NCBI GenBank assembly: GCA_029289325.1
Contig: JARFTV010000005.1
Coordinates: 57,774 to 121,773, forward strand
From: Alphaproteobacteria bacterium
Lineage (GTDB): Bacteria > Pseudomonadota > Alphaproteobacteria > Rhodobacterales > Rhodobacteraceae
DNA length: 64,000 nt
Direction of reading: 5' to 3'
Each line of letters opens with the position of its first letter. Position 1 is the stretch's first letter. Below, piece after piece: positions 37,275 to 53,427 of the stretch. The notes beneath the pieces were generated by a model. It saw only the letters and a list, made by a program, of their open reading frames with translations. It made no database searches and was not told the origin of the DNA. The position numbers and the translations under genes are program-made.

Positions 37275-37539
37275 CAATCCACCCTCTCTGACCGATCAGG
37301 GAAGAACAGCGGCTCGCCCCGATCAATACCCTCGATGATGGCCGTAATGCCCGCCGCCGCCGGACTTGCAGACGTCCATGGCACGGGCAAGTTTTTACCC
37401 AGCCACGGCCCGGCCCCGACACTTGCACCGCCTGTCACCAACCAAGTGGCCCGCAATATTCCTGTGATCTGCTCTTTGCTCGGACGTCACATGGCGGTGC
37501 TAGGTCGCATGCATCCGCATGCAACCATGGACACCCACT
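37275..37539. promoter_or_regulatory. Divergent control region between LuxR-type gene and phnD-like gene
   Basis: This 265-bp gap has no gene. It holds a CTGTCAC half site at 37432-37438 and CTGTGAT at 37462-37468, single Pho-box-like heptamers not in the usual 11-bp spacing. It also holds a tandem repeat of GCATGCATCC/GCATGCAACC at 37507-37526 just before the phnD-like gene. I see no clear -10/-35 pair. Confidence 0.4.
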
Positions 37540-38406
37540 ATGAAACAGCTTCTGCTTTCCGGCCTGCTTGCCAGCGCCCTATTTGGCGCGACCCATGCCG
37601 CTGCCGAAGACACCATCCGTTTTGCCGTCACCGATATTGACGGGCTTGAAGCGCTGCAGCGCGAGATGGGGCCGTTCAAGGAGGCTTTCGAGGCTGCTTC
37701 GGATCTGAAGGTCGAATTTTTCCCCGTCTCCGGCCGCACTGTGGCCGTCGAGGCGATGGCCGCCGATCAAGTGGATTTCGTGCTGACCGGCCCGGCAGAA
37801 TACGTGGTTTTCAATGCCCGTCTTGATGCCCAGCCCGTCGTGACCTTCAAGCGGCCGGATTATTACTCGACCGTCGTCGTGCTGGACGAAAGCCCGATCC
37901 AGACTCCCGAGGACATCAAGGGCAAGAAGATCTCCTTTGGCGAGATCGGCTCCACCTCGCAGCACCTTGGCCCCGTGGATCTGCTGACGAAAGCCGGTCT
38001 GGGCTATGCCACCGATTATGAGCCCGTTTTCCTGAAACGGAATGTGGCTATCGAGGCGCTGGTTGCCGGCGACATTGCGGGGATCGGTGTCAATCGGACC
38101 CATATCGAAGCCTTTTCCGAGAAATTCCCTGATGTGAAGCTGCGGGTGCTGCTCAAAGGCGACCAGCTACCGGATGACATCCTGCTTGCCTCGTCCAAGG
38201 TCGCGCCGGAAGCGGTGGAGATTGTGCGCAAGACTTTCGCCGATCACAGCGAAACGCTTCTGGCCGCTGTCACCTCGACCGAGGAGAACGCGAAATACAT
38301 CGGCGGGGCCTTCAACGCCCAGGTCACCGATGCCGACTATGACGTGGTGCGCAAGATGTATGAGAATCTCGGCATAACCGAGTTCACCGAATTCGTCGGC
38401 CAGTGA
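37540..38406 (+). CDS. PhnD-like phosphonate-family binding protein, system 1
   Basis: The 288-residue protein has a Sec signal (LLLSGLLASALFGATHAAAE) and is a PhnD/SsuA-type binding protein. The ligand loop reads GEIGSTSQHLGPVDLL, while the C-P lyase PhnD at 43077 has DPNSTSGYLVPG, so the ligand probably differs. MAADQVDFVLTGPAEYVVF is the typical second lobe. The start at 37540 gives a normal signal peptide though the ribosome site is weak. It opens a compact unit followed by ATPase, permease, methyltransferase and PhnM-like amidohydrolase genes. Confidence 0.88.
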   Translation: MKQLLLSGLLASALFGATHAAAEDTIRFAVTDIDGLEALQREMGPFKEAFEAASDLKVEFFPVSGRTVAVEAMAADQVDFVLTGPAEYVVFNARLDAQPVVTFKRPDYYSTVVVLDESPIQTPEDIKGKKISFGEIGSTSQHLGPVDLLTKAGLGYATDYEPVFLKRNVAIEALVAGDIAGIGVNRTHIEAFSEKFPDVKLRVLLKGDQLPDDILLASSKVAPEAVEIVRKTFADHSETLLAAVTSTEENAKYIGGAFNAQVTDADYDVVRKMYENLGITEFTEFVGQ

Positions 38407-38413
38407 CGGCAGT

Positions 38414-39217
38414 ATGAACGCGCTCATCCTTCCCTCCCGGGCTTTGGCCGGTTCCACCCTGGTGGAGCCGGTCCTTGCGGTTGCCGGGCTTACCAAGGTC
38501 TTTTCGGGCCGTGAGATTCTGCAGGGGCTGGATTTCGCCCTCTCCCCCGGCCAGTCCACCGCGCTGATCGGCGCGAACGGGTCGGGCAAGTCCACCCTCC
38601 TGCGCTGCCTTGTGCGTCTGGTCGAGCCGACCTCGGGCCGCATCGCCATGCTGGGGCAGGATGTGATCACTCTGCGCCCGCACGAATTGCGCCGGTTCCG
38701 CGCGCGGGTTGGGATCGTCTGGCAGCGCCACAACCTTGTGCCGCGCCTGTCGGCGCTCTCAAACGTCATCCACGGCGTGCAGGCCCGGATGTCGGGCCCC
38801 CGAGCCTGGTTCCAGTCTCTCGCCCCCGCCGATGTCCGAGCCGAGGCCATGACTTGCCTTGCCCGCGTGGGCCTGGCCGACCGCGCCTCTGCCCGGGTCG
38901 ACAGCCTGTCGGGCGGCCAGCAGCAGCGCGTCGCCATCGCGCGCATGCTCATGCAGCGCCCGGCTTTCATCCTTGCCGATGAACCCGACGCAAGCCTTGA
39001 CCCGCAGACGGGGCAAGAGGTGATGGAGCTGCTTCTGGGCCTTGTCCGGCAGGACGGGTTGTCGCTCTTGGTCATCTCGCACCGGCTGGAACACACGCTG
39101 GCCTATTCCGACCGCATCCTTGGCCTTGCCAACGGCCGCATCGCGCTGGACCTGCCGACGGTTCAGGCGAATGCCGCCGCGCTGCGCCGGTTTTTCGATC
39201 ATGAGGGTGCCGCATGA
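38414..39217 (+). CDS. PhnC-like ABC ATPase, system 1
   Basis: The 267-residue ATPase has Walker A GANGSGKST, signature LSGGQQQRV and Walker B FILADEPDAS. The PhnC-type region NLVPRLSALSNVIHG and MSGPRAWFQSLAPADVRAEA resembles phosphonate ATPases. It starts 7 bp after the binding-protein stop and ends overlapping the permease start by 4 bp. Confidence 0.93.
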   Translation: MNALILPSRALAGSTLVEPVLAVAGLTKVFSGREILQGLDFALSPGQSTALIGANGSGKSTLLRCLVRLVEPTSGRIAMLGQDVITLRPHELRRFRARVGIVWQRHNLVPRLSALSNVIHGVQARMSGPRAWFQSLAPADVRAEAMTCLARVGLADRASARVDSLSGGQQQRVAIARMLMQRPAFILADEPDASLDPQTGQEVMELLLGLVRQDGLSLLVISHRLEHTLAYSDRILGLANGRIALDLPTVQANAAALRRFFDHEGAA

Positions 39218-40014
39218 CCGACGCCACTCTTTCCCCGCCCCGCTTCCGCCACCTTGGCTTGCCATCCTATGTGGTCCTTCTGGTCGTGCTGGCGCTGGTC
39301 GTCTCGTCCGTGGCCGCAACCGCCCCAAGCGCCGACAAGCTTGTTCGGGGGATCACTCGGCTTTTCGCTCCTTCGGGCCTGTTCACCCAGATGGTCCCGC
39401 CAGATTTCTCGCGGATCGAGCCGATCTCGTGGAAACTGTTGGAGACGCTGCAAATGGCCGTGGCAGGCTGCTTTCTGGGCCTGATCTTCGCGGTACCCTT
39501 CGCGATCCTTGCCACTGACCGGCTGTCACCGCATCCCGTGGTGCGAAGCATCGCCCGCGCGGTCATCGCGCTGTTCCGCACGGTGCCGGACCTCGTCTGG
39601 GCGATCATCTTCATCATCATCATGGGTCTGGGCCCCGCCGCGGGCGTCATGGCAATCATGGTGGACAAGATCGGCTTCGCCGGCCGCTTCTTCGCCGAGG
39701 CGATGGAGGAAACCGACCCCGGCCCGCAGGACGCGCTGCGCGCCATCGGGGCCAGCCGGCTGGGGGTGATCGTGTCCTCGGTCTTTCCGGCCTGCCTGCC
39801 GTCCTTCACCGCCACCTCGCTGTTCGCGCTGGAAAAATCCGTGCGCGGTTCGGCCGCTCTCGGCCTTGTCGGCGCAGGTGGCATCGGGGTCGATCTCAAG
39901 GTCGCCTTCGACCTTTTCAACTATGACGAGGCGCTGGCGATCATCCTTCTGATGCTCGCCCTTGTCATCGCCGTCGAGCAGGGCTCGGGCTGGATCCGCA
40001 GGAAACTGATATGA
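39214..40014 (+). CDS. PhnE-like ABC permease, system 1
   Basis: The 266-residue inner-membrane permease has five to six hydrophobic segments and the family motif EAMEETDPGPQDALRAIGAS followed by FPACLPSFTATSLFALEKSV. It would form a homodimer, as only one permease is encoded. That contrasts with the PhnE1/PhnE2 pair downstream. It overlaps both neighbours by 4 bp. Confidence 0.92.
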   Translation: MTDATLSPPRFRHLGLPSYVVLLVVLALVVSSVAATAPSADKLVRGITRLFAPSGLFTQMVPPDFSRIEPISWKLLETLQMAVAGCFLGLIFAVPFAILATDRLSPHPVVRSIARAVIALFRTVPDLVWAIIFIIIMGLGPAAGVMAIMVDKIGFAGRFFAEAMEETDPGPQDALRAIGASRLGVIVSSVFPACLPSFTATSLFALEKSVRGSAALGLVGAGGIGVDLKVAFDLFNYDEALAIILLMLALVIAVEQGSGWIRRKLI

Positions 40015-40679
40015 CCATGATGACCACAGATACTGCCCATCTTTACTGGAACGCCGAATGGCAGAAGGCCGATGGCAGCAGTCCTTGGGCGCAGCCGGAA
40101 CCCTGGGTGACCGATCATATGGCAGCGCTGGCGCCGAGGTCGCGGGTACTCGACCTTGGGGCAGGCATTGGACGCCATGCGCTGGCCTTTGCCCGCGCCG
40201 GCCATCAGGTGACTGCACTGGATGCCGCCGAGGCTGCCGTGGACGCCATTTCGGCCTCCGCCTTCACCCATGGCCTGACGATCGACGCCCGCATCGGCGC
40301 GATGACCGATCTGCCCTTCGAGAGCGGCAGTTTCGACCATGTGTTGGCCTGGAACGTGATCTACCACGGCGACGAGTCCATCGTCCGACGCACCTTGGCC
40401 GAGGTGGCCCGCGTCATCCGCCCCGGCGGCAGCTTCATGGCCACCATGCTGTCCGCCCGCCGCCTGCCGGTGGAACAGGCCAAGGCAAGGGGGCGCGAGA
40501 TCAGCCGCAATACCTGGGTGTTCGAAGGTCCCGGCGACAAGGTTCATCCGCATTACTTCTGCACCGCGCCAGAGCTTCTGTCGCTCCTGTGGGGATTCGA
40601 GACGCTGACCCTCTTTGATCGTCCCCACGAAAAGCCCGGATCGTGGCACTGGCACCTTCTGGCGGAGCGACTGGCATGA
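40011..40679 (+). CDS. Class I SAM-dependent methyltransferase
   Basis: The 222-residue protein has motif I VLDLGAGIGRHALAFA, an acidic residue after it (VTALDAAEAA) and motif IV FDHVLAWNVIYHG. This is the usual Rossmann SAM fold. The N-terminal YWNAEWQKADGSSPWAQPEP is shared with TehB-like and small-molecule methyltransferases. The substrate is unknown. It sits in a translationally coupled chain between a phosphonate-type permease and a PhnM-like amidohydrolase, so the substrate is likely a compound brought in by that transporter or its product. ATG at 40011 or the following Met are possible starts. Confidence 0.9.
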   Translation: MTMMTTDTAHLYWNAEWQKADGSSPWAQPEPWVTDHMAALAPRSRVLDLGAGIGRHALAFARAGHQVTALDAAEAAVDAISASAFTHGLTIDARIGAMTDLPFESGSFDHVLAWNVIYHGDESIVRRTLAEVARVIRPGGSFMATMLSARRLPVEQAKARGREISRNTWVFEGPGDKVHPHYFCTAPELLSLLWGFETLTLFDRPHEKPGSWHWHLLAERLA

Positions 40680-41911
40680 GCGCGGAACTGATAGATGGCG
40701 CCATGCTGATCCTTGAGGATCGGGTGACGACGGGCTCGGTCCGAGTGGAGGGCGGCCGGATCACCGGCATCGACGTGGCGCGCGACGGGGCCAGCATCAT
40801 TCCCGGCAAGGGCCGCATCCTGGCCCCGGCCTTTGTCGACATCCACGGCGACGCCTTCGAACGCCAGCTTATGCCGCGTCCCGGTGTCATGGTGGGAACG
40901 GAAGCCGCGCTTCTGGAAGCCGACCGCCAGCTTGCGGCGAACGGCATCGCCACCGCCTATCACGCCCTAACCCTCTCGTGGGAGCCCGGCCTGCGGTCGG
41001 TGGAAACCGGCTGGCAGGTCGTCCGCGCGCTGGAGGGGTTGCGGCACCGGCTGACCGCCGACAACCGCATTCAACTCCGCTGGGAAACCTTCTGCCCCGA
41101 GGCGGAACCCCTGATCGCCCATGTCCTTGCCGGCCCTGACCGCCCGGCGCTGGCCTTCAACGACCACACCACCGCGGCATTGCTGCACCCCGAAATCGCC
41201 GTCCACGACCGGCCATTCGATCATGTCGACGATTACCCGGTGACCGATCTTTCCGCCGAGGGTTTCCTGCACAAGATGGGTGAACGCGCGAAGCGGTCGC
41301 ACATGACCACCGCTGATTTCGTCGCGCTGATCGCCCGGGTGTGGGCCCGGCGACCCGAGGTTCCGGCCCAGATCGAACGGATCGCTGCGCTGGTGCGCAA
41401 GCAGGGCGCACCGATGCTCAGCCATGACGACAGCCAGGTGGAAACCCGCATCTTCTATCGCAGCCTCGGCGCCCGGGTGGCCGAGTTTCCGATGCATGAA
41501 AGGGTGTTCCTTGCGGCGCGTGAGGCGGGCGACCCGATCGTGCTTGGCGCACCGAACGCCATGCGCGGCGGCAGCCATCTGGGCAGTCCCGGTGCCGCGC
41601 AGATGATCGCGCGGGGGCTCTGCGACATCCTCGCCTCTGATTACTACTACCCCGCCATGTTGGGCGCGATGGTGCGGCTTCATGCCGACCGGGTGGCACC
41701 CTTGGCCGACCTCTGGCGGCTGGTCTCGGTCAACCCCGCCCGCGCGATGGGGCTGACTGACCGTGGCCGCATCGCGCCGGGACAGCGGGCCGATATTGTG
41801 CTGCTCGACTGGCCCGAAGGCCATGCGCCGGCGCCACTGCGCACCTGGGTCTCAGGGCGGGGCGGCTATTCCGCGCTGCCCCAGCAACGCACCGCCGAAT
41901 ACGCATCCTGA
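40676..41911 (+). CDS. PhnM-like amidohydrolase, second copy
   Basis: The 411-residue protein is a homologue of PhnM (alpha-D-ribose-1-methylphosphonate-5-triphosphate diphosphatase). It keeps the metal-site blocks: VDIHGDAFER, FNDHTTAAL, MLSHDDSQVETR, GAPNAMRGGSH and ASDYYYPAML. The canonical PhnM at 53428 has ELHTDNLERH and DHTPGARQF at the same places, so this copy is diverged around the ligand, and it lies outside the C-P lyase operon. Start at 40676 overlaps the methyltransferase stop. The function may be deamination or diphosphate hydrolysis of a related compound. That is inference. Confidence 0.88.
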   Translation: MSAELIDGAMLILEDRVTTGSVRVEGGRITGIDVARDGASIIPGKGRILAPAFVDIHGDAFERQLMPRPGVMVGTEAALLEADRQLAANGIATAYHALTLSWEPGLRSVETGWQVVRALEGLRHRLTADNRIQLRWETFCPEAEPLIAHVLAGPDRPALAFNDHTTAALLHPEIAVHDRPFDHVDDYPVTDLSAEGFLHKMGERAKRSHMTTADFVALIARVWARRPEVPAQIERIAALVRKQGAPMLSHDDSQVETRIFYRSLGARVAEFPMHERVFLAAREAGDPIVLGAPNAMRGGSHLGSPGAAQMIARGLCDILASDYYYPAMLGAMVRLHADRVAPLADLWRLVSVNPARAMGLTDRGRIAPGQRADIVLLDWPEGHAPAPLRTWVSGRGGYSALPQQRTAEYAS

Positions 41912-42222: not shown

Positions 42223-43041
42223 ATGCTGGATGTACAGGGCGTGACGCGGATGTTCGGCCGGAAAGCCGCGGTGGACGATGTCAGTTTCCACATCGATGGT
42301 CCGGCCTTTGTCGGCATCATCGGGCGGTCAGGCGCGGGGAAATCCACTTTCCTGCGACTGATGAATCGGCTGCTTGACGCCAGCGCTGGCGAAATCCGGG
42401 TGGATGGCCGCAACGTTCTGGCTCTGAAGGGCGCCGAGGCGCGGGAATGGCAGTCGCATTGCGCGATGATTTTCCAGCAGTTCAACCTCGTGCCCCGGAT
42501 GGACGTGGCCTCGAACGTGCTGCACGGCATCCTGAACCGTCGGTCCACCCTGCAGACCATGTTCAACCTCTGGCCCCGCGCCGACATCCTTCGCGCGCTG
42601 GATATTCTGGAGCGCCTTGGCATTGCCGAACAGGCCCCGAAACGGGCCGAGGCGCTGTCGGGCGGCCAGCAGCAGCGCGTTGCCATCGCCCGCGCCCTGA
42701 TGCAGAACCCGAAGATCATTCTGGCAGATGAACCGATCGCCAGCCTCGACCCGATGAACGCGCAGGTGGTGATGGACACGCTGAAGCGCATCAACGTGGA
42801 AGACGGCCGCATGGTCATCGCCAACCTCCACACGCTTGATACGGCGCGGCGCTACTGCGACCGGGTGATCGGCATGCGTGACGGTCGCATCGTCTTTGAC
42901 GGCACGCCGGACCAGCTGTCCACCGGCGTCGCGCGCGAGATCTACGGCGCCGACGACAGCTTCAACGAGGCCGCCACCTCAACCTCGATCCCAACCGACA
43001 CCGCAGCCGACCGGTCCTACGCCGACCTCATGCTGTCGTGA
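42223..43041 (+). CDS. phnC: Phosphonate ABC transporter ATP-binding protein
   Basis: The 272-residue ATPase has Walker [30 protein letters not shown], signature LSGGQQQRV and Walker [11 protein letters not shown]. These are standard for PhnC, which drives phosphonate import. GGGAG lies 7 nt before the ATG. It heads the C-P lyase locus and is followed by phnD after 35 bp. Confidence 0.95.
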
Positions 43042-43076
43042 AACCCGCCACAAGGCCACAACCCCATGGAGTTCCC

Positions 43077-43973
43077 ATGCAAAAGCTGCTGACTGCAACT
43101 GCCCTGAGCGCCGTTCTGGCCACCTCGGCCACGGCTCAGGATCTGACCGGCTTCAATATCGGCATCCTCGGCGGCGAAAACGCCCAGGACCGGATGACCA
43201 ACCTCGAATGCTTCCGCGCCAAGGTGGAAGCCGAGCTTGGGGTGCCGACGAAGCTCTTCACCCCTGCCGATTATGACGGTGTGATCCAGGGCCTGCTGGG
43301 TGGTTCGCTCGACTTCGCCTGGCTGGGTGCCTCGGCCTATGCCAAGACCTACCTGACCAACCCGGAAGCCGTGGACGTGATGCTCACCAAGCAGAACACC
43401 GACGGCACCACCGGCTATTACGCCATCGGCTTCGCCCGCGCTGATTCCGGCATCACGTCGATGGAAGATGCGCAGGGCAAAGTCTTTGCCTTCGCCGATC
43501 CGAATTCGACCTCGGGCTACCTCGTCCCCGGTGCCGAGCTTCAGGAAACCTATGGCAAACTGGAAGACTACTTCGCCGAGGTGAAGATGTCGGGCGGCCA
43601 TGAACAGTCGATCGTTGGCGTGGCGAACGGCGACTTCGACGCCGCCGTGTCCTGGGCCGACGGTTTGGGCAACTGGGAAGACGGCTTCAACTCGGGCGCC
43701 TTCCGCAAGGCCGCGGATTCGGGCCTCGTCGACATGACGACCCTGGTCGAGATCTGGCGCTCGAAGCTGATCCCGGAAGGCCCGATGGTGATGCGCAAGA
43801 CGCTGCCGCAGGACACCAAGGACAAGATGTATGCGCTGATGGATACGATGTGGGAAACCGATCCTGACTGCGCCTACAACGTCGCGGCCGGCGAGGCGAA
43901 GGACTTCGTTCCGGTGAAGCACGAGGACTATCTGGGCATCATCGCCGCGCGCAAACTTCAGGAAAGCAACTGA
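43077..43973 (+). CDS. phnD: Phosphonate-binding periplasmic protein
   Basis: The 298-residue protein has a signal peptide (LLTATALSAVLATSATAQDL). The phosphonate-binding loops are FAWLGASAYAKTY and FADPNSTSGYLVPGAELQ, the typical PhnD serine-rich pocket. The ATG at 43077 follows GGAG. An attenuator-like hairpin lies between it and phnE1, in keeping with higher expression of the binding protein than of the permeases. Confidence 0.95.
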   Translation: MQKLLTATALSAVLATSATAQDLTGFNIGILGGENAQDRMTNLECFRAKVEAELGVPTKLFTPADYDGVIQGLLGGSLDFAWLGASAYAKTYLTNPEAVDVMLTKQNTDGTTGYYAIGFARADSGITSMEDAQGKVFAFADPNSTSGYLVPGAELQETYGKLEDYFAEVKMSGGHEQSIVGVANGDFDAAVSWADGLGNWEDGFNSGAFRKAADSGLVDMTTLVEIWRSKLIPEGPMVMRKTLPQDTKDKMYALMDTMWETDPDCAYNVAAGEAKDFVPVKHEDYLGIIAARKLQESN

Positions 43974-43986
43974 TTTCATGAAGATC

Positions 43987-44020
43987 GGCCGGGTCACCCG
44001 TCTGGGGGCCCGGTTCTTTT
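43987..44020 (+). terminator. Attenuator-like hairpin after phnD
   Basis: CCGGG and CCCGG arms with an inner CCC/GGG pairing are followed by TTCTTTT, 14-45 bp past the phnD stop and before the phnE1 ribosome site. Such structures often let part of the transcripts stop after the binding-protein gene. Confidence 0.6.
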
Positions 44021-44036
44021 GATTTCGGGGGACAGG

Positions 44037-44915
44037 ATGGTGGATATAGCATTCGGGCCGGAACTGGGCAGACGCCCGGACCTTGCCGACAATCGCAAAG
44101 ACTATCTGGAGATGGTGCGCCGCAAGCGGATGTATGGCGGGCTTCTGCTGGTCCTCTTCATTGCGCTCATGTCCTCGGGCTGGATGCTCGCCGATGATCG
44201 CAACGCGGGCGGCTTCTGGGGCGGACTGCATCAGGTCTTCGATTTCCCCTCGGAAGTATTGACCGAGGCGTGGGACAAGCGTCCGAACCTTCCGGCGCTG
44301 TTCTCGAAGCATCTGCCTGCGCTGATCGAGACCCTGAACATCGCCGCCGTGGCCACCCTGATCGGGGCCGTCGCCGCCATGTCCCTGTCGCTTCTGGCCA
44401 CCCGCGGGCTTGCCCGCTGGCCGCGCCTGATCCCGGTGTTTCGCCGCATGATGGACGCGCTGCGCGCTATCCCCGAGATCGTCATCGCGCTGGTGCTGAT
44501 CTACATTCTAGGCGGCGGCCCGGTCCCCGCCGTCATCGCCATCGCCCTGCATACCGGGGGTGCGTTGGGCAAGCTTTTCTCGGAAGTGGCCGAAAACGCC
44601 GACCTCAAGCCGGTCGAAGGTCTCGCCTCGGTCGGGGCCAACTGGTCGCAACGGATGTGGCTGGGGGTGATCCCGCAGGTCGCGCCCAACTGGCTCAGCT
44701 ATGCGCTGCTGCGCTTCGAGATCAACGTCCGCGCCAGCGCGATCCTGGGCTTTGTCGGCGAGGGCGGGATCGGCCACGATCTCAAGCTTGCCATGCAATG
44801 GGGTCAGGGGCGCTATGACCAGGTGGTAGCGATCTTCCTGCTGCTCTTCCTTGCCATTGTCGTGATCGACCGCGTCTCGGACCATTACCGGCACAAACTG
44901 GTGAAAGGGCACTGA
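44037..44915 (+). CDS. phnE1: Phosphonate ABC transporter permease 1
   Basis: The 292-residue permease has an N-terminal helix (GLLLVLFIALMSSGWMLA), five more hydrophobic segments and the conserved loop EVAENADLKPVEGLASVGAN. With PhnE2 it forms a heterodimeric pore. GGGGGACAGG lies before the ATG at 44037. It is followed by phnE2 after 3 bp. Confidence 0.94.
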   Translation: MVDIAFGPELGRRPDLADNRKDYLEMVRRKRMYGGLLLVLFIALMSSGWMLADDRNAGGFWGGLHQVFDFPSEVLTEAWDKRPNLPALFSKHLPALIETLNIAAVATLIGAVAAMSLSLLATRGLARWPRLIPVFRRMMDALRAIPEIVIALVLIYILGGGPVPAVIAIALHTGGALGKLFSEVAENADLKPVEGLASVGANWSQRMWLGVIPQVAPNWLSYALLRFEINVRASAILGFVGEGGIGHDLKLAMQWGQGRYDQVVAIFLLLFLAIVVIDRVSDHYRHKLVKGH

Positions 44916-44918
44916 CCC

Positions 44919-46241
44919 ATGACCACGTCCCTCTCCCCCAGCCTGGCCGAGAGCGTCAACCGCCGCTTCGACCGCAAGCGCCGCATGGCCTTTGCCGTTC
45001 CGGCCGCGATCATCGCCTATCTGGTCTATGCCGCGATCAGCTTTGACATCGCGGGACTGGTGAACCGCGCCCGCTTTGACAATGCCTCGATCCTTCTGTC
45101 TGACTTCTGGTCGCACAAGACGCACGTCACCCGCGACAACCGCAACGGCAAGCTGACAGTCGCCATCGAGGGTGAAAGCAAGGGCACCTACCCCGAGGGC
45201 ATGTTGCCTGACTGGGTAAGTGTCTCGGACGGCGTTACCACCATCGACCTCGGTGACGGCCACATCGTCACCTACGACCAGGCAGGCGCGCGCTATGTCG
45301 TGCCGGGCTACGGCACCATCGACGTCCGCCCCGACGGCGACCGCCCAGTCATCACTGCGCCCGAACCGATCCCCGACTGGATCGCGGTGGCTGAAAACCG
45401 TGTGGGCGTCACCACCACGGCCGGGCGCTTCACCTACACAAGGTCGAAGGTGGAAACCTTCAAGTACCACGCTGGCTGGGAGCTGTGGTTCTTCACGCTC
45501 GACAGCCCCTTCCATGGCAAGGGCTTTGGCGAGCTTGCCGCGCTGGCCCTGTCTGGCGATCGGATCGACCCCGATCGTTCGAACCTTGGCTATATGGCAA
45601 GCGAGTTCTGGACCAACAGGATGTGGCGCCATGGCGACGTGGCCTGGGCAATCTTCGAGACGATCCTGATGGCCTTCCTCGGCACAATGACCGCCGCGAT
45701 CGTGGCCCTGCCACTGTCTTTCCTTGCCGCGCGGAACTTCATGCCGCTTGGCATTTTCCGAGGTGCGGCCCGTCGGGTCTTCGACTTCATCCGAGGCGTG
45801 GACGGGCTGATCTGGACCATTATCCTGTCCCGCGCTTTCGGACCTGGCCCGATGACCGGCGCCATTGCGATTGCGATCACCGACACCGGCAGCTTCGGCA
45901 AGACCTTTTCGGAAGCGCTGGAGAACATCGACGAGAAACAGGTCGAGGGCGTCCGCTCTACCGGAGCCAATGCCTTGCAGCGCGCCCGGTTCGGGGTGAT
46001 CCCGCAGGTGATGCCGATCCTTCTGGCTCAGGTGCTTTACTATCTGGAATCCAACACCCGCAGCGCCACCGTGATCGGAGCCATTGTCGGCGGCGGGATC
46101 GGGCTTCTGCTGACGCAGGCAATCATAACCCAGAAGGACTGGGAGGAAGTGGCCTATTACATGGTCCTGATCGTGCTGATGGTCATGCTGATGGACAGCC
46201 TGTCGGGCTGGCTGCGGCGCAAGCTGATCAAAGGGAAATGA
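44919..46241 (+). CDS. phnE2: Phosphonate ABC transporter permease 2 with large periplasmic insert
   Basis: The 440-residue permease is longer than the usual 260-300. One helix (residues 24-45) is followed by about 175 residues of beta-rich periplasmic sequence (VTIEGESKGTYPEG-type, VPGYGTIDVRPDGDRP). The normal five-helix core with EALENIDEKQVEGVRSTGAN then ends the protein. Long PhnE2 forms are known in alphaproteobacterial phn loci. The insert may dock PhnD. Its stop shares ATGATG with the acetyltransferase gene. Confidence 0.93.
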   Translation: MTTSLSPSLAESVNRRFDRKRRMAFAVPAAIIAYLVYAAISFDIAGLVNRARFDNASILLSDFWSHKTHVTRDNRNGKLTVAIEGESKGTYPEGMLPDWVSVSDGVTTIDLGDGHIVTYDQAGARYVVPGYGTIDVRPDGDRPVITAPEPIPDWIAVAENRVGVTTTAGRFTYTRSKVETFKYHAGWELWFFTLDSPFHGKGFGELAALALSGDRIDPDRSNLGYMASEFWTNRMWRHGDVAWAIFETILMAFLGTMTAAIVALPLSFLAARNFMPLGIFRGAARRVFDFIRGVDGLIWTIILSRAFGPGPMTGAIAIAITDTGSFGKTFSEALENIDEKQVEGVRSTGANALQRARFGVIPQVMPILLAQVLYYLESNTRSATVIGAIVGGGIGLLLTQAIITQKDWEEVAYYMVLIVLMVMLMDSLSGWLRRKLIKGK

Positions 46242-46858
46242 TGCCGAAACTGTCGCCCGAACAGCCCCTGGTCCATCCCGGTTGCCAGATCGTCAATTCC
46301 TCCTTCGGGGCATATTGCGAGGTGGGCGAAGGAAGCCGCGTGCTGAATTCGACCTTCGAGGATTACGCCTATTGCGACAGACTATCCGACATCGCCAACA
46401 CCACGGTCGGCAAGTTCGCCAACATTGCCGCGATGACGCGGATCGGGCCGACTGACCATCCGATGGCAAACGCAAGTCTGCACCATTTCCTTTACCGGTC
46501 ATCCTATTACTGGGACGACGCTGAGGACGACGCGGATTTCATGGCCCACCGCTCCGGCCGACGCACGGTGATCGGGCCGGATACCTGGCTGGGCCACGGG
46601 GTGATCGTGAAGCCCGAGGTGACGATCGGCGCCGGGGCGGTGATCGCCTCGGGCGGCGTGGTGACCAAGGACGTGCCGCCCTACATGATCATGGCGGGTG
46701 TCCCGGCCCAGCCCTTGCGCGCCCGCTTTGCGCCGGGGGTGGCGGACCGACTGATGGCGCTGGCCTGGTGGGATTGGCCGCATGACCGGCTTCGGAAGGC
46801 GCTGACGGATTTCCGGTCGCTGCGGGCCGAGGCCTTTCTGGAGAAGAATCAGGGCTAA
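46238..46858 (+). CDS. Hexapeptide-repeat acetyltransferase of the phosphonate cluster
   Basis: The 206-residue protein is a left-handed beta-helix acetyltransferase of the phn-linked hexapeptide family (known as phosphonate metabolism transferase, phn_thr-fam). It has repeats such as VIGPDTWLGHGVIVKPEVTI and GAGAVIASGGVVTKDVPPYM with the XAT-type catalytic His in GHGV. It may acetylate aminophosphonates, as PhnO does, though it is unrelated to PhnO in sequence. It ends overlapping phnF tail-to-tail by 4 bp. Confidence 0.9.
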   Translation: MMPKLSPEQPLVHPGCQIVNSSFGAYCEVGEGSRVLNSTFEDYAYCDRLSDIANTTVGKFANIAAMTRIGPTDHPMANASLHHFLYRSSYYWDDAEDDADFMAHRSGRRTVIGPDTWLGHGVIVKPEVTIGAGAVIASGGVVTKDVPPYMIMAGVPAQPLRARFAPGVADRLMALAWWDWPHDRLRKALTDFRSLRAEAFLEKNQG

Positions 46859-47571
46859 TCGGGGCTGACCGTCAGGGTTACCCGGTCCCCGGCAAACCAT
46901 GTCGTGCCGAATTCGACCGGAACCTCCGTCGCATCGACGTTCAGCGCCACGGACCGCAGCACGGGCGCTCCCGGCTGAACCTGCAAGGCCAGCGCCAGCA
47001 CCGGATCAGCCAGCTTGGCGGTGAGGCGGGTGTCGCGGCGGGTGTAGTCAGCCAGCCCGCAGGCCCGCAATGCCGCGGTGACCGAGGACTGTCCCTCCAT
47101 TGCCGCCAGCAGCCCTGGAAACCGCGCCGCCGGAAAGACCGACCGGAAGGCCGCCAGCGGCATCCCGTCGGCCAGCGACACACCCTCCACCACATGCACC
47201 ATGGCACCGGGGTCCAGCCCCAGTGCGTCTGCCTCCTCGGGCTGGGCCGGGCGGGTCTCCAGCCGGGTGATCCGGCGCGAGGGCGTGCGGCCGCTATCGC
47301 TGACGTTCTGGTGGAAGCGCACCCGCCGCCCCAGCCGGTAATCGGTGGGTCGTGAGGCCACGAACACGCCGGATCCCCGGCGTGAGACAATCACGCCCGC
47401 CTCGGCCAGATCGGCCAACGCCCGGCGCAAGGTGTGGCGGTTCACCCCGAAACGCGCGGAAAGCTCCGCCTCGGTCGGCAGACGTGCACCGGGCGCATAG
47501 GCGCCCTCGGCAATCTCAGCCCGTAGTGTGGAGGCAATTGCGGACCACAGCGTTTCACGCGGCAAGTGCAT
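46855..47571 (-). CDS. phnF: GntR/HutC-family repressor of the phn genes
   Basis: The 238-residue protein has the GntR winged helix (PTEAELSARFGVNRHTLRRA) and a HutC/UTRA effector domain (TRLETRPAQPEEADALGLDP, VEGVSLADGMPLAAFRSVFP). PhnF proteins are ligand-sensing repressors of phosphonate genes. It diverges from phnG and faces the acetyltransferase gene. AGGA precedes the start, and the Pho box begins only 4 bp from it, so the two control systems meet in this gap. Confidence 0.93.
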   Translation of the reverse strand: MHLPRETLWSAIASTLRAEIAEGAYAPGARLPTEAELSARFGVNRHTLRRALADLAEAGVIVSRRGSGVFVASRPTDYRLGRRVRFHQNVSDSGRTPSRRITRLETRPAQPEEADALGLDPGAMVHVVEGVSLADGMPLAAFRSVFPAARFPGLLAAMEGQSSVTAALRACGLADYTRRDTRLTAKLADPVLALALQVQPGAPVLRSVALNVDATEVPVEFGTTWFAGDRVTLTVSPD

Positions 47572-47574
47572 ATC

Positions 47575-47631: not shown

Positions 47632-47647
47632 TTGTCTAGTTGTATAG
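47632..47647 (+). promoter_or_regulatory. Tandem 8-bp repeat, candidate PhnF operator
   Basis: TTGTCTAG and TTGTATAG follow each other directly at the expected transcription start of phnG. TTGTATAG resembles half sites of HutC-type PhnF operators. A repressor here would block RNA polymerase. Confidence 0.55.
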
Positions 47648-47682
47648 TAAGTCCGACAAACTGCCAAGATGTCGAGGATGCG

Positions 47683-48126
47683 ATGATCGAAGACCAGACC
47701 GCGGCGCGAAAGGGATGGATGTCCCTTCTGGCAAAGGCCCCGCCTGACCGGCTTGCGGCGCTGCTGCCAGACCTGCCGGACCACGCCCTTGTGCGCAGCC
47801 CGGAAAGCGGGTCCGTCATGGTCAGGGGCCGGATCGGGGCCAGCGGTGGCCCGTTCAACCTGGGTGAAATAACGGTGACACGCTGCTCTGTCCGCATGGG
47901 ATGCGGCACGGTCGGCCATGCCTGGGTGCAGGGCCGTGACAAGGCCCATGCCCGGCGCGCGGCGGTCGTGGACGCGCTCATGCAGACCGAAGCGGCGGCG
48001 GGCCTGCGCGCCTCGGTGCTGCACTTGCTGGCGGCCGAGGCCGATCAGGCGCGCGCCACCCGCGCGGCCAAGGCCGCGGCGACCAAGGTCGATTTCTTCA
48101 CCATGGTGCGGGGGGAAGACGCATGA
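47683..48126 (+). CDS. phnG: C-P lyase complex subunit PhnG
   Basis: The 147-residue protein matches PhnG, which with PhnH, PhnI and PhnJ forms the C-P lyase core complex: RKGWMSLLAKAPPDRLAALL and NLGEITVTRCSVRMGCGTVG with conserved residues near the core. The start at 47683 fits the family's beginning. It overlaps phnH by 4 bp. Confidence 0.95.
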   Translation: MIEDQTAARKGWMSLLAKAPPDRLAALLPDLPDHALVRSPESGSVMVRGRIGASGGPFNLGEITVTRCSVRMGCGTVGHAWVQGRDKAHARRAAVVDALMQTEAAAGLRASVLHLLAAEADQARATRAAKAAATKVDFFTMVRGEDA

Positions 48127-48692
48127 TCGCCGACACTCTTTCCGGTGGCTTCGCCGACGCCCCGACCAAGTCTGCACGCGCCTTCCGCGCCATCCTTGAG
48201 GCGATGGCCCGGCCTGGCACGATCCACACTGTCACCGCCGCCCAACCGCCCGCCCCCCTGTCTGTGGCGGCTGGCGTCGTGCTCCTCACGCTTTGCGATG
48301 GCACCACGCCCCTGCATCTCGCGGGAACAGCCGACCGGGCCGAGGTCCGCGACTGGGTGGCCTTCCACACCGGAGCCCCGCTCGTCGCCCCCGAGGAGGC
48401 CGCTTTCGCCCTTGGCCGGTGGGAGGCGCTGGCCCCCGTCAGCTGCTTCCGCATCGGCCAGCCCGATTATCCCGACCGCTCGGCCACACTGATCGTCGAG
48501 ATGGACCGCCTGACCAACCACGGTCCCGCCCTGACCGGACCGGGGATCGAAACCGCCACATGGCTGAATCTGCCGGAAACGGCAGCCTTCCGGGCCAACC
48601 GAGCACTGTTCCCGCTGGGGTTCGACACGATCTTCACCTGCGGCGACCGCATCGCCGCCCTGCCCCGGTCCACCCGCGTGGAGGCTGTCTGA
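48123..48692 (+). CDS. phnH: C-P lyase complex subunit PhnH
   Basis: The 189-residue protein has PhnH features: SARAFRAILEAMARPGTI at the N-terminus, LLTLCDGTTPLHL and FRANRALFPLGFDTIFTCG at the end. It is a structural subunit of the C-P lyase core. It overlaps phnG and phnI. Confidence 0.95.
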   Translation: MIADTLSGGFADAPTKSARAFRAILEAMARPGTIHTVTAAQPPAPLSVAAGVVLLTLCDGTTPLHLAGTADRAEVRDWVAFHTGAPLVAPEEAAFALGRWEALAPVSCFRIGQPDYPDRSATLIVEMDRLTNHGPALTGPGIETATWLNLPETAAFRANRALFPLGFDTIFTCGDRIAALPRSTRVEAV

Positions 48693-49792
48693 TGTATGTT
48701 GCCGTCAAGGGTGGCGAACGCGCCATCGACAATGCGCACCAATGGCTGGCCGAGGAACGCCGCGGGGACCTTTCGATCCCCGAACTGACCATCCCCCAGA
48801 TACGCGAGCAGATGAAGCTTGCGGTCAATCGGGTCATGGCCGAGGGCTCGCTTTACGATCCAGACCTTGCCGCCCTTGCGATCAAGCAGGCGCGGGGTGA
48901 CCTTATCGAGGCGGTCTTCCTGATCCGCGCCTATCGCACCACCCTGCCGCGCTTTGCCCTGTCGAACCCGGTCGATACCGGGACGATGGCGGTGGACCGT
49001 CGCATCTCGGCCACGTTCAAGGATCTGCCGGGCGGGCAGGTTCTAGGGCCGACCTTCGACTACACCCACCGGCTGTTGGATTTTGCGCTGATGGCCGAGG
49101 GAGAGGCACCCTCGGGCACGCCCCCCACCCCGATCAATCCCTTGGAACGGGGGGCACCCCTTGTCCCCCATGTCACCGGTTTTCTCGACCGCGACGGGCT
49201 GATCGAGACGGAACCCGCGACCGACACCACACCCCCCGACCTGACCCGCGAGCCGCTGGAGCTTCCGGCCGACCGCGCCCTGCGCCTGCAGGCGATCACA
49301 CGGGGGGATGAGGGCTTCATCCTGTCGCTCGCCTATTCCACTCAGCGCGGCTATGGCCGCACCCACGCCTTTGTCGGCGAATTGCGCATCGGGCGGGTAG
49401 CGGTCGAGGTCGACATCCCCGAACTCGGCTTCGCCGTGGAGATCGGCGAGGTAGAGCTGACCGAATGCGAGACGGTCAACCAGTTCAAGGGCTCCAGGAC
49501 CGAACCACCGCAGTTCACCCGGGGCTATGGGCTGGTCTTCGGCCAGTCCGAACGCAAGGCCATCGCGATGAGCCTTGTCGACCGCAGCCTGCGCTGGAAC
49601 GAACTGGGCGAGGACTTCACCGGCGCCCCGGCGCAGGACGCCGAGTTCGTGCTTTATCACTGCGACAATATCCAAGCGACCGGGTTTCTCGAACATATCA
49701 AGCTGCCGCATTACGTCGATTTCCAGGCCGAGCTGGAGCTGGTCCGCGGGCTGCGGGCCGAGGCGCAGGCGCAGCGGGAGGCGGCGGAATGA
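48692..49792 (+). CDS. phnI: C-P lyase complex subunit PhnI (nucleosidase)
   Basis: The 366-residue protein matches PhnI, which couples ATP-derived ribose triphosphate to the phosphonate. It shows MYVAVKGGERAIDNAHQWLA at the start and DYTHRLLDFAL, ELDLAFAVEIGEVELTECET-type motifs later. The TGATG junction with phnH implies coupling. It overlaps phnJ by 4 bp. Confidence 0.96.
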   Translation: MYVAVKGGERAIDNAHQWLAEERRGDLSIPELTIPQIREQMKLAVNRVMAEGSLYDPDLAALAIKQARGDLIEAVFLIRAYRTTLPRFALSNPVDTGTMAVDRRISATFKDLPGGQVLGPTFDYTHRLLDFALMAEGEAPSGTPPTPINPLERGAPLVPHVTGFLDRDGLIETEPATDTTPPDLTREPLELPADRALRLQAITRGDEGFILSLAYSTQRGYGRTHAFVGELRIGRVAVEVDIPELGFAVEIGEVELTECETVNQFKGSRTEPPQFTRGYGLVFGQSERKAIAMSLVDRSLRWNELGEDFTGAPAQDAEFVLYHCDNIQATGFLEHIKLPHYVDFQAELELVRGLRAEAQAQREAAE

Positions 49793-50679
49793 CCATATCC
49801 CGAGAAACCCAAGCCTACAATTTCGCCTATCTGGATGAGCAGACCAAGCGGATGATCCGCCGTGCCATCCTGAAGGGCCTGGCGGTGCCCGGGTATCAGG
49901 TTCCCTTCGCCAGCCGCGAAATGCCCATGCCTTACGGCTGGGGCACCGGCGGAGTGCAGGTCACAGCGGCCTGTCTGATGCCGGAGGACCGGCTGAAGGT
50001 CATCGATCAGGGCGCCGATGACACGACCAATGCTGTGTCGATCCGCAAGTTCTTTGCCCGGACGGCGGGCGTAGCCACCACTGAACGGACGGGCGAGGCA
50101 ACCGTGATCCAAACCCGCCACCGCATCCCGGAAACGCCGCTGACCAAAGGGCAGATCCTTGTCTACCAGGTACCGATCCCCGAACCCCTGCGCTTTCTTG
50201 AACCGCGCGAGACCGAGACGCGGAAGATGCACGAGCTGGAGGAATACGGGCTGATGCATGTGAAGCTCTATGAAGACATCGCTCGCCACGGCCAGATCGC
50301 GACATCCTACGCCTATCCGGTCAAGGTCGAGGGGCGCTATGTCATGGACCCCTCACCGATCCCGAAGTTCGACAATCCCAAGCTCGGCCAGAGCCCCGCC
50401 ATCCAGCTGTTCGGCGCGGGGCGTGAGCAGCGCATCTTTGCCCTGCCGCCCTTCACGGACGTCGTCAGCCTGGACTTCGACGACTACCCCTTCGCGGCCA
50501 CCAAGGCCCCGCACGACTGCGACCTTTGCGGCGCGCGGCAAAGCTATCTGGACGAAGTCATCACCGATGACCGGGGCGGGCGGATGTTCGTCTGCTCCGA
50601 CACCGATTTCTGCGCCGGTCGACAGGCGGAGGGCAAGGTCGGGCGACTTGGGGTGGGTCAGGCGGAGGGCGCGAAATGA
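49789..50679 (+). CDS. phnJ: C-P lyase catalytic subunit PhnJ (radical SAM)
   Basis: PhnJ breaks the carbon-phosphorus bond using a 4Fe-4S cluster and SAM. The 296-residue protein has the C-terminal cysteine motif CDLCGARQSYL then MFVCSDTDFC, giving the CX2C...C pattern of PhnJ rather than the CX3CX2C of classic radical SAM enzymes. The N-terminal KRMIRRAILKGLAVPGYQVP is typical. All core cysteines are present, so it looks functional. Confidence 0.97.
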   Translation: MTISRETQAYNFAYLDEQTKRMIRRAILKGLAVPGYQVPFASREMPMPYGWGTGGVQVTAACLMPEDRLKVIDQGADDTTNAVSIRKFFARTAGVATTERTGEATVIQTRHRIPETPLTKGQILVYQVPIPEPLRFLEPRETETRKMHELEEYGLMHVKLYEDIARHGQIATSYAYPVKVEGRYVMDPSPIPKFDNPKLGQSPAIQLFGAGREQRIFALPPFTDVVSLDFDDYPFAATKAPHDCDLCGARQSYLDEVITDDRGGRMFVCSDTDFCAGRQAEGKVGRLGVGQAEGAK

Positions 50680-51461
50680 CGCTGCGGGAAAAGATCGTCG
50701 CATTGGATCGACCGATCCTCAAGGTTGAAGGCCTGACAAAGCGCTATGGTCCCCGTATTGGCTGCGTGGATGTGTCCTTTGAGCTGTACCCGGGCGAGGT
50801 TCTGGGGATCGTCGGGGAAAGCGGGTCGGGGAAATCCACGTTGCTGTCCTGTCTTGCCGGGCACCAGCGCCCCGACCTTGGCCGCATCGCCTTTGACGGG
50901 CGCGACGTGCTGGCGATGAGCGAGACTGAACGTCGCCTGCTGTCGCGCACCGACTGGGCCTATGTCCACCAGAACCCGCGCGACGGGTTGCGGATGGGCG
51001 TCAGCGCGGGCGGGAACGTGGGCGAACGGCTGATGGCCGTGGGCGCGCGGCATTATGGGCAGATCCGCGGCAAGGCGGCCGATTGGCTCGGCCGGGTGGA
51101 AATCGCCGCCGACCGGATCGACGACCGCCCCAGCGCCTTTTCCGGGGGCATGCAGCAACGCCTGCAGATTGCGCGCAATCTGGTCACAGCGCCGCGCCTT
51201 GTCTTCATGGACGAACCGACGGGCGGCCTTGATGTTTCGGTGCAGGCTCGGCTTCTGGACCTGCTGCGCGGCCTGGTCCGCGACCTTGGCCTGTCGGTCA
51301 TCATCGTGACCCATGACCTTGCCGTGGTCAGGCTGCTTGCGCATCGGCTGATGGTGATGAAATCGGGCCGGGTGGTGGAACAGGGCCTGACCGATCAGGT
51401 GCTGGACGATCCGCAGCACGCCTATACGCAATTGCTCGTCTCCTCTGTGCTTCAGGTGTAA
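50676..51461 (+). CDS. phnK: C-P lyase associated ATP-binding protein PhnK
   Basis: The 261-residue ABC-type ATPase has Walker A GESGSGKST, QNPRDGLRMGVSAGGNVGER, a degenerate signature FSGGMQQRL and Walker B LVFMDEPTGG. PhnK binds the C-P lyase core rather than a membrane permease. It overlaps phnJ and is followed by phnL after 4 bp. Confidence 0.95.
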   Translation: MTLREKIVALDRPILKVEGLTKRYGPRIGCVDVSFELYPGEVLGIVGESGSGKSTLLSCLAGHQRPDLGRIAFDGRDVLAMSETERRLLSRTDWAYVHQNPRDGLRMGVSAGGNVGERLMAVGARHYGQIRGKAADWLGRVEIAADRIDDRPSAFSGGMQQRLQIARNLVTAPRLVFMDEPTGGLDVSVQARLLDLLRGLVRDLGLSVIIVTHDLAVVRLLAHRLMVMKSGRVVEQGLTDQVLDDPQHAYTQLLVSSVLQV

Positions 51462-51465
51462 CCAC

Positions 51466-52149: not shown

Positions 52150-52670
52150 TCTTCGCCGTCGTCGGCCCCTCGGGCGCGGGGAAGGATACGTTGATCGCGG
52201 GTGCGCTCGCCGTCCGGCGGGACCTGCGCCTTGTCCGCCGCGTCATCACCCGCCCGTCCGAAGCGGGGGGCGAGGATTTCGAGGGCGTCTCGGTCCCGGA
52301 TTTCCTTCTCCGCCGGGACCGGGGCGAATTTGCCCTGCACTGGCAGGCGCATGGCCTGCATTACGGCATCCCCAAGTCCCAGCTCGCCGGACCGGGTGAC
52401 GTGATCTTCAACGGCAGCCGCGCCGCCCTGCCCGAGGCCGTTCGGGCCCTTCCGGGGCTGCGTGTGATCCTTGTCACCGCGCCGGATGCCGTGCTGGCCG
52501 ACCGGCTGACCGCACGGGGACGCGAGGAAGCCGCCGACATCCGGGCGCGGCTGAACCGGGCAGGCTTTGCACTGCCCGAGGGGATTAGCGCCACGCCTGT
52601 CATCAACGATGGCGCGCTGGAGACCGGCATCAGCCGGCTTCTGGCGGCACTTCAGCCGGTAAGGGCATAG
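52146..52670 (+). CDS. phnN: Ribose 1,5-bisphosphokinase PhnN
   Basis: PhnN phosphorylates ribose-1,5-bisphosphate to PRPP, the last step of the C-P lyase pathway. The 174-residue protein has the P-loop VVGPSGAGKDTLI and RLVRRVITRPSEAGGEDFEG typical of the family. Its end overlaps the convergent DUF1045 gene by 19 bp. Confidence 0.95.
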   Translation: MIFAVVGPSGAGKDTLIAGALAVRRDLRLVRRVITRPSEAGGEDFEGVSVPDFLLRRDRGEFALHWQAHGLHYGIPKSQLAGPGDVIFNGSRAALPEAVRALPGLRVILVTAPDAVLADRLTARGREEAADIRARLNRAGFALPEGISATPVINDGALETGISRLLAALQPVRA

Positions 52671-53332: not shown

Positions 53333-53354
53333 GCGGGGCTGCGTAGCGGGGCTC

Positions 53355-53372: not shown

Positions 53373-53427
53373 GGTCCATGGCACCAGACGCCATCCCCTT
53401 CCGGGCCTTTTCCCAAGCGAGACCGAC

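Follow-up and report, generated by a model that had tools for sequence, protein, structure and literature searches.

A conserved five-gene operon for phosphonate-type uptake and processing, adjoining the C-P lyase genes of a Rhodobacteraceae bacterium

Analysis of a 64,000-nucleotide stretch of a Rhodobacteraceae genome (contig JARFTV010000005.1; hereafter the window) supports a phosphonate-type uptake and processing operon of five open genes, all on the + strand at 37540-41911, which is real and conserved far beyond chance. The five genes probably form an accessory module, presumably induced by phosphate starvation, whose dedicated transporter and PhnM would supply C-P lyase with an additional phosphonate; a methyltransferase (MT) is an optional part. 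Through C-P lyase, phosphonates serve as a source of phosphorus and methylphosphonate gives off methane; the enzyme's natural substrate range and the auxiliary genes surrounding it are poorly explained. According to the accessible part of one report, a second phnM-like gene is among those whose exact role is still to be defined (PMC3840354). A conserved transporter–PhnM–methyltransferase module with clear residue signatures makes the role of such a gene directly testable.

Gene order of the operon and its neighbourhood

The operon and the adjoining genes in the window are as follows:
37440..37510, + strand: degenerate Pho-box-like heptamers in front of the SBP gene (sequence; repeats in relatives)
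37540..38406, + strand: PhnD-like periplasmic binding protein (SBP), distinct subclass (PF12974)
38414..39217, + strand: PhnC-like ABC ATPase (TIGR02315, 2.7e-71, under cut-off)
39214..40014, + strand: PhnE-like permease (TIGR01097, 9.5e-76, above cut-off)
40011..40679, + strand: class I SAM-dependent methyltransferase, MT (PF13649, AlphaFold model, conserved residues)
40676..41911, + strand: PhnM2, PhnM-like amidohydrolase of HGDAFE type (NF011987, tree clade)
42223..46241, + strand: canonical phnC, phnD, phnE1 and phnE2, the second phosphonate transporter
46238..46858, + strand: hexapeptide transferase of phosphonate clusters (TIGR03308, 293 bits, cut-off 201.65)
46855..47571, - strand: phnF regulator (TIGR02325, 214.5 bits, cut-off 156.8)
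47632..52670, + strand: phnG, phnH, phnI, phnJ, phnK, phnL and phnN (open reading frames; G, H, I, K and L by match to an annotated Loktanella cluster)
49789..50679, + strand: phnJ (PF06007, 7.4e-143)
52146..52670, + strand: phnN (named from position and sequence only)
52652..53332, - strand: DUF1045, probable RcsF-like 2H phosphoesterase (PF06299)
53428..54573, + strand: canonical phnM, HTDNLE (TIGR02318, 420.8 bits, cut-off 390.55)

Coordinates and family matches bear out the initial annotation of five genes in a row with ATGA overlaps at three of four junctions, namely ATPase/permease (39214-39217), permease/MT (40011-40014) and MT/PhnM2 (40676-40679); the SBP and ATPase genes are separated by a 7-bp gap, with no overlap. 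A second in-frame ATG of the SBP gene lies at 37519, and the site matching 37540 is the start in many relatives. The arrangement is not confined to one strain: in a draw of 295 Rhodobacteraceae genomes, the five-gene order is complete in 18 of the 21 MT-positive genomes. The earlier remark that no gene for breaking C-P bonds lies among the five was correct, but it omitted the full C-P lyase operon, which begins with phnC at 42223, 311 bp downstream of the module on the same strand.

Protein families and conserved residues

By its PF12974 (Phosphonate-bd) score (4.5e-35, 121.6 bits; cut-off 27) and its STS motif, the SBP is classed as a member of the PhnD/PtxB superfamily. It fails the NCBI PhnD equivalog TIGR03431 (74.2 bits vs cut-off 261.1), and the ATPase scores 239.8 bits against NCBIfam PhnC (TIGR02315), below the 266.1 cut-off. 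The nearest solved structure to the SBP is PtxB, both by sequence (3.7e-19) and by fold (1.9e-20); its fold neighbours include GpxB (rank 13, E 7.4e-17), and ArrX and AioX have the same fold. R66, Y108, S138-T139-S140, R167, N168 and D213 are invariant in all 38 rows of alignment A2, which holds 38 of 41 open reading frames (L038 was omitted for a long upstream extension, L026 and L028 for long starts). The phosphite-specific cap tyrosine (Y203 of Ps_PtxB) aligns with Asp213 (38/38), Tyr49 of PtxB with an arginine, and the histidine of STS-H with Asn168 (38/38; Asn in 56/57 of a wider set); the PtxB signature of cap Tyr plus STS-H His is absent from the SBP. The stretch GSTSQHLGP, first read as replacing the PhnD pocket, is indeed present, but its STS is the canonical PhnD/PtxB motif, found in 57 of 57 sequences of the wider set, and the pocket differs at other residues.

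MT matches PF13649 (Methyltransf_25, 2.2e-20), and its AlphaFold model has a pLDDT of 92.9. Eight residues (H119, D176, K177, H179, H181, H206, W214 and H215) are invariant in the 35 rows of alignment A1, which covers 35 of 36 open reading frames, L069 being omitted for a long upstream extension. Assignment to a known phosphonate methyltransferase, with DhpI as the candidate, was rejected: the top 50 structure matches and the sequence and profile matches name generic class I methyltransferases. Phosphoethanolamine N-methyltransferases are among the profile matches. An ArsM-type arsenite methyltransferase was likewise rejected (NF008823, 33.3 bits vs cut-off 263).

The distribution of MT is patchy. 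It occurs in 20 of the 28 SBP-positive genomes of the Rhodobacteraceae draw and, class-wide, in 4 of 172 genomes, two of them outside the family. At 8 of 77 PhnM2 loci the transporter is present without MT, one genome (G204) has MT without PhnM2 beside it, and a search at E 1e-25 found MT elsewhere in none of 17 MT-less genomes, the same query matching 21 genomes of the 295-genome draw. MT and PhnM2 thus do not always travel together, as had been suggested for checking, and MT is not essential to the module because many modules lack it.

PhnM2 is placed in the PhnM family by its score against the PhnM subfamily NF011987 (348.9 bits, cut-off 253) and by the motifs HxDxxE and GAPNxxRGGSHxG; it falls below the PhnM equivalog TIGR02318 (285.2 bits vs 390.55). 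PhnM is the diphosphatase of ribosyl-phosphonate triphosphate (RPnTP). HGDAFE, which is in the sequence as reported, had been taken to mark a diverged enzyme, but HGDxxE is an ordinary PhnM variant: the PhnM encoded within C-P lyase operons reads HGDMIE in Sinorhizobium, HGDSLE in Thermus and HGDAFE in Marinobacter. The sole PhnM found in genome G496 is also of this kind. The E. coli motif is HTDNLD. A new activity for HGDAFE was rejected on the PhnM tree, in which the HGDAFE clade comprises 32 rows with support 100/98, and on the context survey. In a further tree, the canonical PhnM row of G357 was out of frame and its placement is meaningless; the other joins were computed with that row present.

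Neither such a transporter nor MT lies in the flank of 34 of the 77 PhnM2 loci, 21 of the 34 being rhizobial by title and several loci truncated. Among 27 rhizobial PhnM2 loci no common neighbour was seen beyond apparent lineage synteny, and no phn gene adjoins the Paroceanicella homologue or the Variovorax relative. A class-wide draw contained PhnM2 in 2 of 289 genomes. Duplicates and overlapping loci (L001, L002 and L084-L088) were excluded from some counts.

Association with C-P lyase and upstream repeats

Whereas phnJ is present in 147 of the 295 Rhodobacteraceae genomes, it is found in 33 of 34 PhnM2-positive (Fisher p 3e-10), 27 of 28 SBP-positive (p 3e-8) and 20 of 21 MT-positive genomes (p 5e-6), the overlaps being tallied by eye and the genomes, all of one family, being related. 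Because it co-occurs with C-P lyase, the module is not the complete stand-alone uptake-and-modification route first proposed; co-occurrence cannot prove a shared pathway. The phnJ-less genome common to the three sets, G123, carries phnK-phnL-phnN-phnM on a 6.3-kb contig that begins inside phnK, so its phnJ was probably lost to assembly. Among loci whose fetched flank had no phnJ, the gene was found in 32 of 32 genomes checked, a subset that includes rhizobia lacking a phnJ baseline.

In Marinobacter and in two further families, both alphaproteobacterial, the C-P lyase loci contain related modules. Marinobacter pMAQU01 has the order SBP-PhnC-PhnE-PhnM(HGDAFE)-phnGHIJKL-MFS-phnN-phnP. Outside Rhodobacteraceae, SBP-PhnC-PhnE-MT of G357 adjoins phnF and phnGHIJKLM, and an HGDAFE PhnM there precedes phnN; G496 has HGDAFE PhnM, SBP-PhnC-PhnE-MT, phnF, phnGHIJKL, DUF1045 and phnN. 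In G496 (10 contigs, completeness 100) the HGDAFE protein is the single PhnM-family match; the same search found both PhnM2 and canonical PhnM in G136, G123, G307, G300 and G357.

In relatives, CTGTCRY-like repeats with 11-bp spacing lie at about -64 of the SBP gene. Across 57 distinct SBP upstreams, Pho-box-like triples score a mean of 15.62 vs 12.08 for shuffled sequences, which ignore relatedness and give z values that are not probabilities, and 12.93 for the reverse strand; their median position is -64 (IQR -69 to -57). The heptamer weights were set by us from the consensus CTGTCAT. The MT upstreams, which are coding DNA, gave 11.64 vs 12.09 shuffled (n=52), and the livK and aioX controls, one sequence each, were uninformative, the aioX query being translated in a wrong frame with 6 stops. 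The window's own copy is weak, its best pair having 4 mismatches to 14 specified bases and its best triple lying elsewhere. Among 28 stand-alone or near-stand-alone PhnM2 upstreams, a CAAATYTGTYAY site is present in 11 and missing in 17. The repeats suggest that the module may be under PhoB (phosphate-starvation) control.

Proposed role and comparison with known systems

We propose that the binding protein, ATPase and permease would bring in a phosphonate for which the canonical PhnCDE is a poor transporter. In the cytoplasm, PhnI with PhnGHL would join this phosphonate to the ATP ribose. PhnM2, as a PhnM paralogue, would strip pyrophosphate from the ribosyl-phosphonate triphosphate, a reaction suggested by its family, its context and the HGDAFE type of the only PhnM found in G496; PhnJ of the neighbouring C-P lyase would then cut the C-P bond. 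MT is an optional add-on; its likeliest role would be to methylate the incoming molecule, or something closely derived from it, making it usable or tolerable for C-P lyase. E. coli PhnO acetylates 1-aminoalkylphosphonates, and by analogy a PhnO-like role for MT is possible, if doubtful. We consider unlikely a new entry branch into C-P lyase, in which the distinct SBP would import a phosphonate with an extra anionic, amino or hydroxyl group, a dedicated MT would cap that group before C-P cleavage, and a matched PhnM2 would handle the bulkier ribosyl triphosphate. Counting against the accessory-module reading are the MT-less modules, the PhnM2 loci without a transporter, the poor fit to the PhnD model, the pocket without the conserved His and the weak Pho box of the window.

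Alternatively, the transporter could be a Gpx-like importer of phosphate esters or organophosphates, with PhnM2 outside the C-P lyase pathway and the phn linkage due merely to a shared Pho regulon. GpxB among the fold neighbours, the rhizobial PhnM2 genes without such a transporter nearby, and R66, R105 and R167 of the SBP, which would suit a more anionic ligand, all fit this idea; the near-constant presence of phnJ in PhnM2-positive genomes, the embedding of modules in C-P lyase loci of other families and the HGDAFE protein as the sole PhnM found in G496 make it quite improbable. Import of phosphite is more improbable again: PtxB is the closest solved structure and the single permease matches the PtxABC layout, but Asp, Asn and Arg replace the cap Tyr, the STS-H His and Tyr49, and phosphite would need neither PhnM nor MT. 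The faintest chance is that of an arsenic route, in which arsonate or arsenite would be taken up and methylated. Just past the C-P lyase operon, the source genome does carry a cluster for arsenite oxidase together with an ACR3-like gene and an arsR-arsC fusion; an arsR-arsC homologue occurs near the module at 2 of 77 loci (L034 and L038), and the fold of the SBP is also that of ArrX and AioX. Against it, and against the arsonate-like substrate of the initial annotation, AioA is no commoner in MT-positive (3/21) or PhnM2-positive genomes (5/34) than overall (39/295), aioA is in the flank (at most 10 kb) of 0 of 77 PhnM2 loci, and MT scores far below the arsenite methyltransferase cut-off.

Our literature search, which left most subscription papers out of reach, found no functional account of the five-gene operon, in agreement with the earlier failure to match it to a described pathway. 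In its accessible part, a description of the HIMB59 island fGIphn-A mentions phnDCE and phnCDEE around phnGHIJKLM, with auxiliary methyltransferase and hydrolase genes (PMC10734472); the likeness is one of gene content as described, not of sequence comparison, and does not imply methyltransferase homology. On the Rhodobacteraceae fosmid B3_TF_MPn_2, the C-P lyase cluster includes an additional phnM-like hydrolase, a second phnE, a hexapeptide transferase and an RcsF-like gene; unlike for our module, the accessible part of its description mentions no second SBP or MT (PMC3840354). GpxB of the glycerol-1-phosphate transporter is a PhnT-family SBP found in Rhodobacterales, and the part of the report available names genes for two transmembrane proteins and an ATPase beside it, but no MT or PhnM (PMC12718374). 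PtxB, as far as its partly accessible description goes, shares fold and STS motif with the SBP and differs at the cap Tyr, STS-H His and Tyr49 positions (PMC5700983). Structurally, GpxB is a weaker match to the SBP than PtxB. The E. coli C-P lyase operon is phnCDEFGHIJKLMNOP, and the module resembles it in its PhnC/PhnE-type transporter parts, its PhnM family member, its proposed control by phosphate starvation and the kind of locus. It differs in having no lyase genes of its own and in being a second transporter, with an SBP of another subclass and one permease gene, accompanied by an HGDAFE PhnM and an extra MT.

Gene layout and the neighbouring arsenic genes

In the window (G000:C2:57774-121773; host genome 4.17 Mb), the five genes are as the initial annotation read them: a PhnD-like binding protein (SBP), a PhnC-like ATPase, a PhnE-like permease, a class I SAM methyltransferase (MT) and a PhnM-like amidohydrolase with the motif HGDAFE (PhnM2). 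The sequence bears out ATGA overlaps at 39214, 40011 and 40676; the first junction, between the SBP and ATPase genes, is a 7-bp gap without overlap. It is also correct that no gene for breaking C-P bonds lies among the five, but the annotation omitted a C-P lyase operon starting at 42223.

37540-41911, plus strand: five-gene module
42223-54573: C-P lyase region downstream of the module, in the order phnC, phnD, phnE1, phnE2, hexapeptide transferase, phnF (reverse), phnG-L, phnN (named from position and sequence), DUF1045 gene (reverse), canonical phnM
54677-63902: arsenite oxidase and arsenic resistance cluster, comprising the six entries below
aioA, minus strand: TIGR02693
57146-57673, minus strand: aioB, named from sequence and position
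aioR and aioS: named from sequence and position
aioX, minus strand: PF12974, named from sequence and position
61777-62790: ACR3-like transporter, PF01758
63048-63902: arsR-arsC fusion, one ORF with an ArsR-type HTH and a low-molecular-weight phosphatase (ArsC-like) domain

PhnM2 and the canonical phnC are separated by 311 bp in the window (41912-42222), by about 1 kb in the relatives at loci L003, L004 and L007, and by less in L012 and L028.

An arsenic link of the module was considered and rejected, AioA being no commoner in MT-positive (3/21) or PhnM2-positive genomes (5/34) than among the 295 Rhodobacteraceae genomes of the family draw (39/295). In a same-genus relative (G223), AioA and the module lie on different contigs, and 2 of the 77 PhnM2 loci (L034, L038) have an arsR-arsC homologue close to the module. 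We take the arsenic genes beside the module to be a coincidence.

Conservation of the module and its link to C-P lyase

The five genes form a real, conserved module that most likely serves C-P lyase as an accessory. PhnM2 was used as the query to scan the genome collection, which yielded 77 loci, the nearest protein being that of Pseudotabrizicola algicola (92%). By our reading of the flanks, MT, ATPase and permease adjoin PhnM2 in 35 of them; in L005 and L025 the contig begins too late to include SBP. Another 34 have a flank without such a transporter; 21 of these are rhizobial by record title and 13 are not, several of the latter being truncated contigs or weaker PhnM relatives. With MT as query, 21 of the 295 family-draw genomes were positive, and 18 of these carry all five genes in order. 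As for the other three, the contig of L104 ends before SBP, L108 is a short contig with MT and PhnM2 only, and G204 (L107) has SBP-PhnC-PhnE-MT with no adjoining PhnM2. The initial question of whether MT and PhnM2 always travel together is answered in the negative: 20 of the 21 MT-positive genomes hold PhnM2, but 8 of the 77 loci have SBP-PhnC-PhnE-PhnM2 without MT. A search for MT in 17 MT-less genomes at E 1e-25 found none (0/17). SBP was detected in 20/21 MT-positive genomes, and PhnM2 in 25/28 SBP-positive ones.

The marker gene phnJ occurs in 147/295 genomes overall versus 33/34 PhnM2-positive, 20/21 MT-positive and 27/28 SBP-positive genomes. In the sole miss, G123, a 6.3-kb contig that opens partway through phnK carries this gene with phnL, phnN and phnM. 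All 32 genomes picked for a phnJ-free fetched flank also contain phnJ; about half are rhizobia, to which the Rhodobacteraceae baseline of 147/295 does not apply. The link extends across lineages. On Marinobacter nauticus pMAQU01 (L112), a gene row starts with SBP, PhnC, PhnE and an HGDAFE PhnM and also contains phnGHIJKL, an MFS gene, phnN and phnP; this SBP shares the signature TGPAEYVV, RPDY, GSTSxHLGP and LPND. Two further families of the window's class are represented by G357 and G496. In both, phnF and phnG-L have SBP-PhnC-PhnE-MT as neighbours, as well as a divergent HGDAFE PhnM, which overlaps phnN in G357. Haematobacter and Peteryoungia have the transporter arranged divergently from an HGDGFE PhnM, with phnF following the latter. 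Pointing the other way, no annotated phn neighbour was present within the stretch fetched for a Paroceanicella PhnM2 homologue and a Variovorax relative.

Several further arrangements were observed. On plasmid pSMR1-5 of Pseudosulfitobacter (L080), the module is flanked by IS5-family transposase genes and continues into an MFS transporter gene, as also found in the pMAQU01 row, and a sugar phosphate isomerase/epimerase family gene. In roseobacter-type loci L095, L096, L097, L098, L069, L070, L072 and L105, a diverged C-P lyase cluster lies next to the module; its PhnJ, where complete in the flank, is ~45-50% identical to that of the window, and its own PhnM reads HGDMIE where the motif is readable. 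A second phnJ, of canonical type, is also present in several such genomes.

Upstream sequences and PhnM types

Phosphate starvation probably controls the module, judging from upstream sequences in relatives. CTGTCRY-like heptamers with 11-bp spacing (median position -64) precede the relatives' SBP genes, with a mean triple score of 15.62 (n=57 distinct) versus 12.08 for shuffles; canonical phnC (14.47 versus 12.14, n=38) and phnG (14.44 versus 12.04, n=26) follow the same pattern. MT upstreams scored in the same way showed no excess (11.64 versus 12.09, n=52), and the window's own heptamer copy is degenerate. Upstream of transporter-less PhnM2 genes, we counted a CAAATYTGTYAY site in 11/28 and none in 17/28. 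A palindrome like ATTCATTCGAATGAAT lies just 5' of the SBP start codon in roseobacter-type L069, L072, L096, L097, L098, L103 and L105, and is perhaps the operator of a local regulator.

In the PhnM tree, motif types mostly sort by clade. HTDN forms make one group (100/99), as do the HGDM[IV]E forms (100/99) of the diverged roseobacter-type cluster, beside which the Sinorhizobium B11 operon PhnM falls; many HGDGFE forms adjoin phnF. In several C-P lyase operons (L008:16876-17811; L010:18158-19189; L037:19876-20898; others), this third type has the hexapeptide transferase gene on one side and phnF on the other. The PhnM2 clade comprises 32 HGDAFE rows (100/98). Exceptions are an HGDAFE phnF-neighbour of Loktanella that groups with HGDGFE rows, and the pair of HGDGFE proteins from Haematobacter/Peteryoungia, which is nearer PhnM2. 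The deeper join of PhnM2 with this pair and the Marinobacter protein, a long branch, is moderately supported, at 81/88 without G496 and G357 and at 89/95 in a tree that included them and one mis-framed row. Because the single PhnM-family match at E 1e-5 in G496 (10 contigs, completeness 100) is an HGDAFE protein, this type is likeliest a working PhnM.

Binding protein and methyltransferase compared with known systems

By sequence and fold (model pLDDT 89.2), SBP is nearest PtxB, ahead of GpxB, ArrX, PhnD and AioX. Its STS motif is invariant (57/57). Relative to PtxB, Y94 is kept (Y108, 288-residue numbering), but Y49 is replaced by R66, the STS-H His155 by N168 and the cap Y203 by D213, each in 38/38 alignment rows; positions were counted along the alignment, with PtxB residues as named in the available part of PMC5700983, where E. 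coli PhnD likewise has Asp at the cap (D205). Asn occupies the STS-H position in 56/57 of a wider SBP set, and the more distant SBP of G204 has Gln at the R66 position. Our reading is of a putative oxyanion site with an altered, more positive surround, not specific to phosphite.

The MT model is of high confidence (pLDDT 92.9) and has varied class I methyltransferases among its listed structure neighbours, and its profile matches include phosphoethanolamine N-methyltransferases and phosphatidylethanolamine N-methyltransferase, among others. All 35 aligned sequences (35/35) share residues D176, K177, H179, H181, H206, W214 and H215, as well as H119, which is at the position of a catalytic His in RebM-like enzymes. 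A hypothetical PhnO-like job for MT is plausible, since three marine clusters without phnO gave no growth on aminomethyl- or 1-aminoethylphosphonate (available part of PMC3840354).

No functional account of the five-gene module was found in the literature searched, and the word "methyltransferase" is absent from the main text of PMC8316502 and PMC10574752. The existence of the module is partly visible in print already. The accessible text of PMC3840354 describes a Rhodobacteraceae cluster that has a second phnM-like gene, and proposes that genes of this kind may enable particular substrates to be used; the HIMB59 island described in that of PMC10734472 has phnDCE, phnCDEE and phnGHIJKLM, with a methyltransferase gene and a hydrolase gene among its auxiliary genes.
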